Below, one piece after another: positions 38,380 to 45,315 of a DNA stretch of 47,207 nucleotides. The notes beneath the pieces are model-generated. The model was not told the DNA's origin. It ran no database searches and worked only from the letters and a program-made list of their open reading frames with translations. The stretch spans positions 1 through 47,207 of the forward strand of contig QZKO01000017.1 in NCBI GenBank assembly GCA_003599505.1. Reading direction: 5' to 3'. The stretch is from Nitrospiraceae bacterium. GTDB lineage: Bacteria; Nitrospirota; Thermodesulfovibrionia; UBA6902. The position numbers and the translations under genes were made by a program. Every line of letters begins with the position of its first letter. The stretch's first letter is position 1.

Positions 38380-40878
38380 TCAGGCCGGAACTCTCCGGTC
38401 CTCCCGCAACAAGGCCTCCGCTGCCCCGGCCTCCAGCGGTTTTGAAATCAGGAACCCCTGCACGTATTCGCACTTTAAAGATTTGACCAGGGCAAGCTGC
38501 TCCTCTGTCTCCACTCCCTCCGCGACGACTTCCATGTTGAGGCCGTGGGCCAGGGTCGCGACCGCCCTGGCTATCACATGGTTATCTTTCTTGCCCGTCA
38601 TCCTGATGAAAGAGCGGTCGATCTTCAGTGCGTCAATCGGGAGCTGGTGCAGATAGCTCAACGATGAATAACCCGTGCCGAAATCATCGATGTGTATCTG
38701 GACCTGCATCTCTTTAAGTTTCGACAGCAGCGGCAAAACGGTCACGGCATTCTCCATCAGCATGCTTTCCGTGATCTCCAGCACCAGGCTTCCGGGCGCG
38801 GGCGCATACTGTTCAGTGACCCGCCCGACAAGCGTAACAAGATTAGGGAACAACTGCCTGCTGGAGATGTTGACGCTCATCGTCAAGGGAGGCCGGCCGG
38901 CGAATTTTTCCCGCCATATCCTCATTTGACGGCAGGCCTCGTTAAGCACCCACTCGCCTATGTGTATGATCAGCCCGGTTTCCTCGGCCAGGCCGATAAA
39001 CTCCGCGGGCGAGATCAGCCCCCTCTCCGGATGCTGCCACCTTACAAGGGCCTCAAATCCGCAAACGGCGCCGGTTTCCATCGATATAATGGGCTGGTAG
39101 TGGAGCCGGAACTCATTCAGTTTTATCGCCTGTCTGAGGTCCGTTTCAAGCTGGACCCTGGCCAGAGCGCTGGCATACATTTTTTTGTTGAATATCTCGT
39201 AGTGGCCATGTCCTCTGCCCTTGGCATAATACATTGCTATGTCTGCGTCGCGCAGGTAATGCTCCGGTTTTTCGCAGTCACGCGCGCAGAAAGCTATCCC
39301 GACGCTTGCGGAGGTGAATATCTCGCGGCCGCTGATTTCAAAGGGCCGCGCAATATTTCCCTGTAAATGCTCCGTAACCGGGACGGCCTCTTCTCTGCTT
39401 TTGAGGTTATCGAGGAGGATGACAAACTCATCTCCTCCGAAACGGGCGATAACGTCATGAGAACGGACGCTCTCTTTCAGTCTCCGGGAGATTTCCGTAA
39501 GCGCTACATCTCCCATGGAGTGTCCCAGGCTGTCGTTGAACACCTTGAAACGGTCTATGTCCAGAAACAGTACTGCAAAAAGATAATCCTCCTGACGCTT
39601 TCCACGGTCCATGGCATGCCTGAGATGATCAAAAAACAGGACGCGGTTAGGCAGTCCCGTCAGGGAATCGTGGAGCGAGTTGAAGATGATCTGTTCTTCC
39701 GCGGCCTTCCTTGCCTCCTCTGTATGTTTGCGGTCCGAAATGTCCCTGCTGTATTCGATAACATGCGAAACGCCGCCGTCCTTATTAAAAACAGGATACG
39801 TATAGATTTCCAGCCATATCTTTGTCCCGCCGTCTACAGTCAAGAGCTTCTCTTTCGCGCACGGGTCCTTGGACCTGAAGCTTTTTTCAACCACGCAGCC
39901 GCCACAGACTGAATTTCTTCCGTGCAGCGCCTCATAACAGTGCCTGCCCATAAAATCCGTCCCGGTGAGCCTTCTGGTCGCGACATATGCTTCATTGGCC
40001 CTTATTAATCTGTATTCGCTGTCAATAATGCAGAACGGGTCATGGATGCTGTCAAACATGCTATTTAAAAACCTCTCGGACTTTACAAGCGCCTCTTCCG
40101 TTTGTTTGCGGAACGCCATTTCCCTGTTGATTTTCTCGTATCCTTCCTTTATAGACGCGCTCATCGTGTTGAAATGTTTTGCGAGCTCCCCGAACTCGGT
40201 CCTGTCTTTACAGGAGACGTTAACGTCATAATCTCCTGAAGTTATCCTCCTGGTCGCATTTACAAGCTCCTTCACGGGACGGACAATAAAGCCTTTCAGC
40301 CTGAAGGCGATAACAACGCTGATGGAAAAAGTCGTAACAAGCGTAATTAAAATAATCATCCTGATTTCCTTTAATCTTCGCGACGCGCTGTTCGTTATAG
40401 TATCGATCTTTGCGCTCGCCTTGTGCGACATATCCGATGTGAGCAGCAGGACGCGGTCGCCGATTTCCGCCGCGGACTTTCTGAGCATGATTATCCGTTC
40501 TGAATTTGCCGACCCCGTCAGATAATAGCTTAGAGCGTCCCCGTATTCATCTATGCGGTTTTGAATGTCGATTAAACGCTCTTTCATCCCCGGCGCGTGA
40601 TGACAGGTAGTGCATACACCGGCTGATTTCTCAAGCTTTATCATGTTGTCCACGATAAAATCAATGTTACTGGTAAGGGGGGTATTGACTGTATAAAGAT
40701 CGTTCTGAACAGCCTGGACGTTTATGACCAGCGATTTCCTTAATTCCTCAACCTCGTGCATTTTGATAATACGGTTCAGTTCTCTTGTCGTATCAGTCAA
40801 ATACCGGACCGACACCAACGCGCCCGCAGTATAAAATATCAGGATCGCAAGAAGCGAAAGGAATACTTTTCTGTTCAT
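38380..40878 (-). CDS. Membrane PAS-GGDEF-EAL protein with periplasmic CxxCH heme-type motif
   Basis: An 832-aa inner-membrane protein. A first transmembrane helix (about 5-27) leads to a periplasmic domain with VCTTCHHAPG (C89, C92, H93), the binding motif for covalent c-type heme. A second helix (173-192), HAMP (193-250), a PAS domain (275-395, with NSVCGGC), GGDEF (about 400-565; RFGGDEFVIL intact), and EAL (575-825; GFEALVRW, LEITES, IHIDDFGTGYSS, VVAEGVET intact) follow. It could both make and degrade cyclic di-GMP, under control of a heme (redox, NO or O2) signal. AAAGGGA precedes the ATG at 40878. It sits ten bases behind a PhnD-type binding protein, probably a co-sensor. Confidence 0.92.
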   Translation of the reverse strand: MNRKVFLSLLAILIFYTAGALVSVRYLTDTTRELNRIIKMHEVEELRKSLVINVQAVQNDLYTVNTPLTSNIDFIVDNMIKLEKSAGVCTTCHHAPGMKERLIDIQNRIDEYGDALSYYLTGSANSERIIMLRKSAAEIGDRVLLLTSDMSHKASAKIDTITNSASRRLKEIRMIILITLVTTFSISVVIAFRLKGFIVRPVKELVNATRRITSGDYDVNVSCKDRTEFGELAKHFNTMSASIKEGYEKINREMAFRKQTEEALVKSERFLNSMFDSIHDPFCIIDSEYRLIRANEAYVATRRLTGTDFMGRHCYEALHGRNSVCGGCVVEKSFRSKDPCAKEKLLTVDGGTKIWLEIYTYPVFNKDGGVSHVIEYSRDISDRKHTEEARKAAEEQIIFNSLHDSLTGLPNRVLFFDHLRHAMDRGKRQEDYLFAVLFLDIDRFKVFNDSLGHSMGDVALTEISRRLKESVRSHDVIARFGGDEFVILLDNLKSREEAVPVTEHLQGNIARPFEISGREIFTSASVGIAFCARDCEKPEHYLRDADIAMYYAKGRGHGHYEIFNKKMYASALARVQLETDLRQAIKLNEFRLHYQPIISMETGAVCGFEALVRWQHPERGLISPAEFIGLAEETGLIIHIGEWVLNEACRQMRIWREKFAGRPPLTMSVNISSRQLFPNLVTLVGRVTEQYAPAPGSLVLEITESMLMENAVTVLPLLSKLKEMQVQIHIDDFGTGYSSLSYLHQLPIDALKIDRSFIRMTGKKDNHVIARAVATLAHGLNMEVVAEGVETEEQLALVKSLKCEYVQGFLISKPLEAGAAEALLREDRRVPA

Positions 40879-40888
40879 TTATGTCCCT

Positions 40889-41770
40889 TTACCTGTTTTC
40901 ATACCTGTAATTCAAGAGGTCAATGCCGGCTTTTTCAGAGAGTCTGAATACAGGGCTGTAATCGGCGGCCGCAGTTTCTATAAACCTTATGGCCCCGAAA
41001 TTTTTGAGCACTTCCCGCCCTTCGGGGTCTTGGTCCATATTTACAAGCGTTCGTCTTAACTTCTCTTTTATGGAAGGCGGAAGGTCTTTTCTGACGCCGA
41101 GCGAATTGGACGGAAAATCAGGTGATTTTGCAAGTATGGTCAACTCGGCAGCTAAGCGCGCGTCCTTCCCGGAGAGAGAATCAAAGATAGTATTTTTCGC
41201 GCAGCCGATCCGGGCTTTCCTGTCAAGTACCGCGTATATCGCCGCGTCATGGCTGCCTGTAAAAAAGTGTTCCCTGAAATATCCGTCGATATCACTTACG
41301 CCCCGCTCTTTTAAATAGGCTACAGGAAAAATATATCCCGCCGACGTCGCCTTGTCTACAAAGGCGAAGACCCTGTCTTTCATATCTTCCACTCCGGTTA
41401 TCCCGCTGTCTTTGCGGACAAAAATATAACCGCTGTATGTTGAAATCCCGTCGAGGTTGACGGGTCTTGCTACAGGCTCGACTCCGAGTTTTTTAACAGC
41501 CAGCGCCCCCGTGAAACTCCCCCAGAAGGCCGCGTCCATCTTGTCCTGATTAAACTTCTCGATAATATTCCCATACCTTGAAAGGACGGAAAACCTGATT
41601 TTTACGCCTGTCTTCTTTTCAATGTACTTTCCAAGAGGCTCATATCTCTTAAACTGTTTAAAAACATTCTGCTCCGGTATAAGGCCTATGGTAATGTCTT
41701 CCGCGTGCAATTCGCCTGAATATAATGAGATAAGAATTAAAAACAGGATAAAATTGTACGCTCGTCTCAT
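40889..41770 (-). CDS. PhnD-like periplasmic phosphate/phosphonate-type substrate-binding protein
   Basis: A 293-aa exported protein (signal peptide about residues 1-23, cleavage near LHA-ED). The body reads DITIGLIPEQNVFKQFKRYEPLGKYIEKKTG and MDAAFWGSFTGALA, then YSGYIFVRKDSGI and DKATSAGYIFPVAYLKERG, the pattern of the phosphate/phosphite/phosphonate ABC-transporter binding family. No ABC permease or ATPase genes are near. Instead it precedes the GGDEF-EAL gene by ten bases, an arrangement known for solute-binding proteins that serve as sensors for membrane signalling enzymes. The ligand is unknown. The ribosome binding site before ATG 41770 is weak. Confidence 0.85.
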   Translation of the reverse strand: MRRAYNFILFLILISLYSGELHAEDITIGLIPEQNVFKQFKRYEPLGKYIEKKTGVKIRFSVLSRYGNIIEKFNQDKMDAAFWGSFTGALAVKKLGVEPVARPVNLDGISTYSGYIFVRKDSGITGVEDMKDRVFAFVDKATSAGYIFPVAYLKERGVSDIDGYFREHFFTGSHDAAIYAVLDRKARIGCAKNTIFDSLSGKDARLAAELTILAKSPDFPSNSLGVRKDLPPSIKEKLRRTLVNMDQDPEGREVLKNFGAIRFIETAAADYSPVFRLSEKAGIDLLNYRYENR

Positions 41771-44829: not shown

Positions 44830-45294
44830 TTACTCGCTGAAGCAAACCTCAACGAAAAAGCTGCCTGCCGGGGTCTCAAACGGTATGCAGATTATCCGGC
44901 CGTCTGTTTTGTGGGATATGATATGGTGTTTCCCGATTATGGCCGCGGGGATCGCCATGTCGAATTTATATCCTTTTTCAGAGAGTATCTTCTTGGCGCC
45001 GCCGGTCACCATATTGGTAATCTCGCCGACGCAGTCGGCCACTGAACCGTCGACCTGTTGTATTTCTTCGCCGAGCATCTTAGAGGCTATATGCAATATC
45101 GCCGGCTCCGTAAAGGTGATCGCCAGGCTCCCTTTCGCCTTCTCCCCCATTAAACCGATGATGCCTGTAACATCCCCTTTTGCGCTCTTTTCAGTTTTTA
45201 AAAAAGGCCTCCCGGGTTTCGCTTCAGTGCCGGCCATTGTAGTCAGCACATTGATTATGCTTTCAAGGAATGGATTGATGAAGTCTGTATTCAT
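44830..45294 (-). CDS. cheX: CheX-like chemotaxis phosphatase
   Basis: A 154-aa single-domain protein of the CheC/CheX/FliY group. It opens MNTDFINPFLESIINVLTTMAG, has KGSLAITFTEPAILHIASKMLG, and the active-site helix DCVGEITNMVTGGAKKILSE, where E and N of the (E)xxN pair dephosphorylate CheY-P or other receiver proteins. ATG 45294 is chosen, as the family starts in this way; a GTG seven codons earlier (45315) is possible. Neither has a good ribosome binding site, and a perfect hairpin (45298-45315) fills that position. No che genes are nearby. It converges with ppdK. Confidence 0.85.
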   Translation of the reverse strand: MNTDFINPFLESIINVLTTMAGTEAKPGRPFLKTEKSAKGDVTGIIGLMGEKAKGSLAITFTEPAILHIASKMLGEEIQQVDGSVADCVGEITNMVTGGAKKILSEKGYKFDMAIPAAIIGKHHIISHKTDGRIICIPFETPAGSFFVEVCFSE

Positions 45295-45297
45295 AAT

Positions 45298-45315
45298 GTG
45301 AAAACAAGTTTTCAC
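45298..45315 (-). promoter_or_regulatory. Perfect palindrome at the translation start of the CheX gene
   Basis: GTGAAAAC-AA-GTTTTCAC (plus strand), 8-bp arms and two-base centre, ending three bases before the ATG of the minus-strand CheX gene. It occupies the place of the ribosome binding site. It may be a repressor operator or an RNA hairpin that limits initiation. Confidence 0.5.

Follow-up and report, generated by a model that had tools for sequence, protein, structure and literature searches.

What is a periplasmic binding protein (PBP) of the PhnD type doing next to a membrane enzyme of cyclic di-GMP (c-di-GMP) metabolism, with no transporter genes at its side? The question is raised by two genes on contig QZKO01000017.1 (assembly GCA_003599505.1) of a Nitrospiraceae bacterium, of which we analyzed a stretch of 47,207 nucleotides (hereafter, the window). 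The first gene (40889..41770) encodes a PhnD-type (PF12974) PBP of 293 amino acids, and the second (38380..40878) encodes a transmembrane receptor of 832 amino acids, in which a membrane helix, a periplasmic domain, and another membrane helix are followed by HAMP, PAS, GGDEF, and EAL domains. (Coordinates are those of the window, and all features of the two genes are on the minus strand.) An earlier note on this DNA, written from the sequence alone, described this gene pair and its ten-base spacing; both open reading frames (ORFs) are where the note put them, and the gap, at 40879-40888, is exactly 10 bases.

We propose that the pair probably encodes a two-gene receptor, in which a four-helix bundle with heme c and a docked PhnD-type protein provide two inputs that set c-di-GMP turnover. 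The PhnD-type protein would be a PBP for sensing rather than for transport, and it would dock on the membrane-distal tip of the bundle of its partner. Both ligand binding by the PBP and the state of the heme (redox, or a diatomic gas) would alter the bundle. The change would be passed on through the second membrane helix and the HAMP domain to the PAS-GGDEF-EAL part, whose response would shift the balance between synthesis and breakdown of c-di-GMP. This would be the logic of NspS-MbaA, with heme c added inside the bundle. The docking, the action of two inputs, the class of the ligand, and the direction of the output are what we infer from the evidence below.

The heme motif and the fold that carries it

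The periplasmic domain contains a CxxCH motif (CTTCH, residues 89-93, 40600..40614), followed by His94, at the turn between helices 2 and 3. Its placement in the periplasm, which the earlier note had also claimed, comes from hydropathy and from the order relative to the HAMP domain: the motif lies between two hydrophobic stretches, residues 3-28 and 171-199.

Conservation of the motif was judged in homologous sensors. A search with the sensor region (residues 1-254) gave hits at E of 1e-8 or better in 77 of 101 genomes (this genome and its relatives). In 63 of these the best E was below 1e-20; the hits in the other 14 were all weak and fell mainly on the HAMP part. The sensor set combined loci from the matching genomes with 80 named loci, which are mostly from Nitrospirota, with some from Geobacterales, Desulfobacterota, Myxococcota, Acidobacteriota, and Pseudomonadota (assigned from titles or tree labels). 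We scanned 142 loci, left out two without a sensor start (L183 and L186), and merged the remaining 140 rows by their identity across residues 61-200, which left 104; near-identical copies remain among these. Of the 104 sensors, 102 were placed on a tree. A further set held 40 homologues, mostly of lower profile score.

CxxCH is present in 103 of the 104 distinct sensors and in 39 of the further 40, so the motif is not there by chance, and the earlier note's concern that it might not be conserved in orthologues is not borne out. (Mean pairwise identity of the domain is near 42% among 57 paired sensors, that is, sensors with a PhnD-type gene upstream.) The exception in the first set is a paired sensor (L078:4487-6802) with CANACHH; its Cx3CH spacing may be a variant site of heme attachment. 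The sole exception among the 40 is a distant homologue of the bundle (L225, 277700-282200 of a contig of a related genome), which has neither CxxCH nor a PhnD-type neighbor.

We infer that heme c would be covalently attached to the periplasmic domain. The genome encodes two cytochrome c assembly proteins (PF01578) above the cut-off. Also, Met150 (40429..40431) is kept in all 57 paired sensors and in 38 of the 39 unpaired sensors that have a residue there. Residue counts along the predicted helices put Met150 level with the CxxCH turn, so we propose it as a candidate for the second (distal) ligand of the heme iron. Might CxxCH instead be a metal site or a disulfide, rather than a site for heme c? 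The sequence is compatible with this, the His94 that follows the motif is near-invariant among homologues, and there is the one Cx3CH homologue. However, the location of the motif in the segment flanked by the two hydrophobic stretches, a CxxCH spacing that is exact in all but one of the 104 sensors, the near-invariant Met150, and the cytochrome c assembly proteins all speak for heme c, and we consider a metal site or disulfide very improbable.

The first 195 residues of the receptor have no Pfam match. The domain is predicted to be an up-down four-helix bundle (mean pLDDT of 87.5) with long first and last helices that enter the membrane, and the predicted periplasmic part is made of helices only (the model was built without heme). 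The first membrane helix spans residues 3-28 (40795..40872; by hydropathy, and a helix in the model), the periplasmic bundle spans residues 29-170 (40369..40794; the model's helices are 2-62, 72-91, 96-121, and 126-213), and the second membrane helix spans residues 171-199 (40282..40368; by hydropathy). The best of 957 aligned chains was LytS from the XylFII-LytS complexes (Z of 15.4 and 15.1, with rmsd of 2.3-2.5 over 117-118 residues). Other structural matches included the TorS-TorT complex, NarQ, and McpN, and Foldseek's own top rows were NarQ. Helical bundles easily reach a high Z, so we take the match to LytS as supportive rather than as proof.

To our knowledge, the four-helix-bundle receptors NarQ, LytS, TorS, and McpN have no heme, so this fold does not need one. 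This bears on the possibility that the PBP is the only input and that the heme senses nothing and serves as a structural or constitutive cofactor. Conservation of the motif alone is not proof of sensing, and a covalent heme could just stabilize the bundle. But the fold manages without heme in those receptors, and in periplasmic receptors that are already known, heme c is responsive to redox or to nitric oxide (NO) (PMC8396549, PMC12889525). A purely structural heme seems quite unlikely to us.

A known periplasmic heme c domain is sCache_heme (Tll0287-like, PF11845), as in GSU0582 and GSU0935 of Geobacter. Like the window receptor, sCache_heme proteins have a periplasmic domain with CxxCH and heme c that precedes varied outputs, including HAMP (PMC12889525, PMC8396549), and chemoreceptors from Geobacter are among these Cache-fold sensors (PMC8396549). 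The fold differs, as it is a Cache fold there and predicted to be all-helical here. We rejected membership in this family: PF11845 gave no hit to the window protein (E up to 1) or to ten relatives (E up to 0.001), and it was not among the best 25 of 57 Pfam families for 70 members of alignment A2. Since PF11845 does not match and the predicted fold is different, the domain would be a separate type of heme c sensor. For the same reason, the NO binding that is reported for a Cache-type heme domain (PMC12889525) should not be carried over to it.

Pairing with PhnD-type proteins and the tip of the bundle

For the pairing count, we left out seven of the 104 sensors with less than 1 kb of upstream sequence and two of the further 40 with too little of it, which leaves 97 and 38 evaluable sensors. 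A PhnD-type gene lies on the same strand and at most 600 bases upstream in 58 of the 97 and in 26 of the 38. Among the 58 paired sensors, 53 have this gene within 100 bases, and in 13 the genes overlap. The pair is also found in Pelotalea chapellei DSM 13688 (L147). With seven PhnD-type genes found in the 2.64 Mb genome of the window, we roughly estimate that adjacency by chance would have a probability well under 1%. The distances among 57 sensors correlate with those among their PhnD-type partners (r = 0.69, a value that none of 2000 permutations reached), which is partly explained by shared descent.

Within the 2.64 Mb genome we found seven PhnD-type genes (by homology to the window protein only, at E up to 1e-5), and all of them precede a sensor-type gene: five histidine kinases, the window receptor, and a short Cache-domain ORF near a contig end. 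In twelve ORFs near the other six pairs, Pfam found no ABC domain (one ORF had no match at all). These ORFs include sigma-54 response regulators (at three pairs), plain receivers, and multiheme cytochrome-type proteins. PhnE was searched for across the genome and gave only weak matches, none above the cut-off. Because all seven genes precede sensor-type genes, the nearby ORFs that were tested have no ABC domain, and there is no PhnE above the cut-off, the PhnD-type proteins of this genome look like sensor inputs rather than parts of transporters.

The nearest PhnD-type paralogue, which is 40% identical, precedes a kinase that has a distant version of the same CxxCH periplasmic domain. L101:4768-7274 (contig C19) is a second pair of a PhnD-type gene and a CxxCH-bundle sensor, with a histidine kinase output; its neighbors include genes for a sigma-54 response regulator and for multiheme cytochrome-type proteins. 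The pairs at L101, L105, and L106 each adjoin a sigma-54 response regulator gene, which recalls AioXSR. A third CxxCH-bundle sensor of this genome, also with a histidine kinase output, is near a contig end (L040:3742-5178, contig C80).

If the PBP docks on the bundle, then the docking surface might be more constrained in paired sensors. XylFII and TorT are PBPs that act on the receptors LytS and TorS (PMC6321045, a review). We ranked alignment columns that are over 85% uniform in paired sensors, leaving out a 12-row clade of unpaired kinases. The five columns that drop most in unpaired sensors are 62, 124, 121, 117, and 73, and all are at the membrane-distal tip. The candidate docking surface has two parts, residues 55-78 (40645..40716) and residues 114-133 (40480..40539). 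We then compared regions of the bundle with the rest by a relative measure of conservation, with labels evolved on the tree as the control. The tip third is relatively more conserved in paired sensors (as high a value arose in 0 of 500 simulations without the 12-row clade and in 19 of 500 when all rows were kept), and so is the distal half (0 of 500 and 1 of 500); a first run gave 0 of 300. At the level of the heme, the bundle is not relatively more conserved when paired (the observed value was reached or exceeded in 466 of 500 simulations without the clade, and in 311 of 500 with all rows). All four residues of a receptor signature (Q58, Y112, S117, and T121) are retained by 56 of the 58 paired sensors and by 16 of the 38 unpaired ones, with one 12-row unpaired clade accounting for the difference at Q58 and most of the difference at Y112. 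Overall, there is moderate evidence that the binding protein docks at the tip of the bundle.

Several observations weigh against a two-input receptor with a docked PBP. First, the structural match is not decisive, as a Z of about 15 is just above the level that unrelated helical bundles reach. Second, the tip region was defined after the top columns had been seen, and the conservation measure is relative: in the membrane-near part, it is the unpaired sensors that are more conserved (the observed value was reached or exceeded in 500 of 500 simulations, both with and without the 12-row clade). Third, a test of the four signature residues with 8 independent pairs was not significant (median P = 0.125; on average 3.7 pairs differed the same way, 0 differed the other way, and 4.2 showed no difference). 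Fourth, shared ancestry alone would also yield the correlation between sensor and partner distances. Fifth, in Pseudomonas aeruginosa, neighboring genes for a PBP and a sensor are reported whose products do not interact (PMC11113362). Finally, no PhnD-type gene adjoins 39 of the 97 and 12 of the 38 evaluable sensors.

This last point also qualifies the earlier note, which had looked to conservation of the pair and had counted pairs found apart in relatives against its reading. The pair recurs far beyond chance, but it is apart in those relatives. The paired or unpaired label requires 15 changes on the tree (96 rows of known state), or 19 if 6 unknown rows are treated as not paired, and at least 8 of these 19 are forced by well-supported branches. 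Even among sensors near glyS and/or the pyruvate phosphate dikinase (PPDK) gene, the genes that flank the window pair, 14 have a PhnD-type gene, 6 do not, and 3 could not be judged. As the PhnD-type gene is absent beside so many sensors, the binding protein is an optional rather than an obligate partner. In contrast, none of the 39 evaluable first-set sensors that have no PhnD-type gene upstream has lost CxxCH, so in these sequences it looks like the heme is the constant input and the binding protein is the removable one. In one locus from Desulfuromonadales (L171:2990-3751), a PF12849 binding protein, encoded 243 bases upstream of a GGDEF-EAL receptor with the heme motif, replaces the PhnD-type protein, but this is a single case.

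A receptor that senses redox or gas by its heme c alone would fit the constant motif. The PhnD-type gene would then be merely co-transcribed, for instance as a leftover of transport, which would agree with its absence from 6 of the 20 evaluable sensors near glyS and/or PPDK and with the non-interacting neighbors in P. aeruginosa (PMC11113362). However, pairing recurs across distant subfamilies, conservation of the tip tracks pairing, and the best structural match of the bundle is a domain on which a PBP docks. A leftover transport protein is also at odds with the seven PhnD-type genes that all precede sensor-type genes in a genome with no PhnE above the cut-off. We therefore regard the heme as sole input as unlikely. 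The dual input of solute and heme that the earlier note had put forward is plausible and partly supported, by the conserved motif, by pairing beyond chance, and by a tip that is relatively more constrained when paired. It needs amending in that the binding protein is optional, and redox or NO would be a candidate input of the heme.

The binding protein, the outputs, and the flanking genes

The binding protein has an N-terminal hydrophobic export signal (by eye), and its model (pLDDT of 93.8) is two-lobed, with PtxB (phosphite), ArrX (arsenate), PhnD, and AioX as the closest solved folds. It matches PF12974 (E = 8e-62, 209 bits against a curated cut-off of 27) and TIGR01098 (172 bits, cut-off of 112) but is below the cut-off of the PhnD equivalog (170 against 261 bits). 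We rejected the idea that it is the PhnD subunit of a phosphonate transporter, given the missed equivalog cut-off and a genome in which PhnE is not found above the cut-off (PhnC was not searched for). Phosphonate transport more generally was also rejected, as the nearby ORFs that were tested have no ABC domain.

What might it bind? The pocket of AioX consists of Tyr88, Cys106, Tyr131, Ser161, Ser163, His192, and Asp210 (PMC5908839). In our alignment, read by eye, Tyr88, Tyr131, and His192 are kept as Tyr66, Tyr112, and His174, and Ser161, Cys106, Ser163, and Asp210 become Thr142, Gly84, Ala144, and Lys192. (Alignment A3, with 41 sequences, shows no variation at Tyr66, Thr142, or His174.) With these differences (G84, T142, A144, and K192), we rejected membership among the arsenic-oxyanion sensors AioX, ArxX, and ArrX. 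Because Cys106 and Asp210 of AioX are replaced by Gly84 and Lys192, arsenite is not expected as the ligand, and arsenite sensing appears unlikely. Our guess is that the ligand is a small oxyanion in a more basic pocket. A model of TtrS matches the binding protein weakly (E = 0.006), and the PhnD-like domains of TtrS and ThsS sense sulfur oxyanions (PMC5408782). These kinases are alike in using a PhnD-like fold as a sensor, but there it is a domain of the kinase itself and here it is a separate protein.

On the cytoplasmic side of the receptor, Pfam identifies HAMP (residues 196-244, 40147..40293), PAS_4 (275-384, 39727..40056), GGDEF (402-557, 39208..39675), and EAL (580-814, 38437..39141) domains. 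The earlier note's statement that both enzymatic motifs are intact holds: by pattern, GGDEF is at residues 481-485, an RxxD I-site is at 472-475, EAL is at 609-611, and the EAL, N, E, DD, K, E, and Q motifs that are expected of a working EAL domain, whose residues we take to be catalytic, are all present. Residues 397-832 align with the solved GGDEF-EAL protein 5m3c (E = 5e-114). Strict patterns for the EAL residues, which are narrow, are matched by 31 of 50 GGDEF-EAL sensors, and the window protein matches all of them. The PAS domain also contains a cluster of cysteines, CYEALHGRNSVCGGC (residues 314-328, 39895-39939); as a conserved feature this was rejected, as the CxxC cluster is found by pattern in just 4 of 104 relatives.

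Other sensors of the family have other outputs. Pfam analysis of ten relatives identified GGDEF-EAL, GGDEF alone, a histidine kinase, and a histidine kinase with a receiver. With outputs classified by motif and length (and checked by Pfam in those ten and in the window protein), three classes require 8 changes on the tree of 92 non-truncated sensors, or 10 if two truncated rows are included. The sensing unit is a cassette, of which the window holds the GGDEF-EAL form.

The flanking genes, by Pfam, encode the beta subunit of glycyl-tRNA synthetase (glyS) and PPDK, and neither is an ABC gene. This agrees with the earlier note, which had described the PhnD-type gene as being without transporter genes. 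Just past the PPDK gene, at 44830-45315, is a gene for a CheX-type chemotaxis phosphatase (PF13690, E = 9e-23).

Relation to known receptors

Each half of the proposed receptor has precedent, in PBP-driven c-di-GMP enzymes and in periplasmic heme c sensors. MbaA has no heme that we know of. In the NspS-MbaA system of Vibrio cholerae, a free sensing PBP sets the balance between the cyclase and phosphodiesterase activities of a membrane c-di-GMP enzyme (PMC8967002), and the arrangement of genes, with a sensing-type PBP gene beside a membrane GGDEF-EAL gene, is what we find in the window. The differences are that NspS binds polyamines, that the window PBP is of the PhnD/PtxB type, and that the window receptor has a predicted heme c bundle. 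A review describes SBP_bac_3 as the only domain of the PBP clan that has been studied in c-di-GMP networks (PMC8846402), although in NspS-MbaA the PBP is a separate protein.

Other systems share the binding protein or the bundle. XylFII-LytS and TorT-TorS have a PBP docked on a helical-bundle receptor, and both are structural matches of the window bundle, but they have other ligands, histidine kinase outputs, and, as far as we know, no heme. In AioX-AioS, and with ArxX and ArrX, a sensing PBP with the PhnD fold is encoded by a gene that adjoins the receptor gene (PMC5908839). The partner there is a histidine kinase, whereas the output in the window is c-di-GMP enzymes. In listings and excerpts from searches of open-licence PMC full text, we found no description of a receptor with both PBP and heme c inputs, or of a family of heme c four-helix-bundle sensors that is paired with PhnD-type proteins.

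A broader proposal is possible, although we consider it less likely than not. These proteins may be a family of receptors that integrate a heme c, halfway down the bundle and responsive to redox or gas, with a removable PhnD-type protein at the tip that binds a respiratory oxyanion. Such a receptor might be a coincidence detector for a usable electron acceptor, coupled through domain swapping to c-di-GMP enzymes or to kinases, and heme c sensing might then have arisen twice independently, here and in sCache_heme.

If the two-input receptor is real, then it would offer a direct way into how one membrane receptor combines information about a solute and about redox. It would also give a sensing role, in Nitrospirota and other anaerobes, to proteins that are automatically annotated as binding proteins of phosphonate-type transporters.

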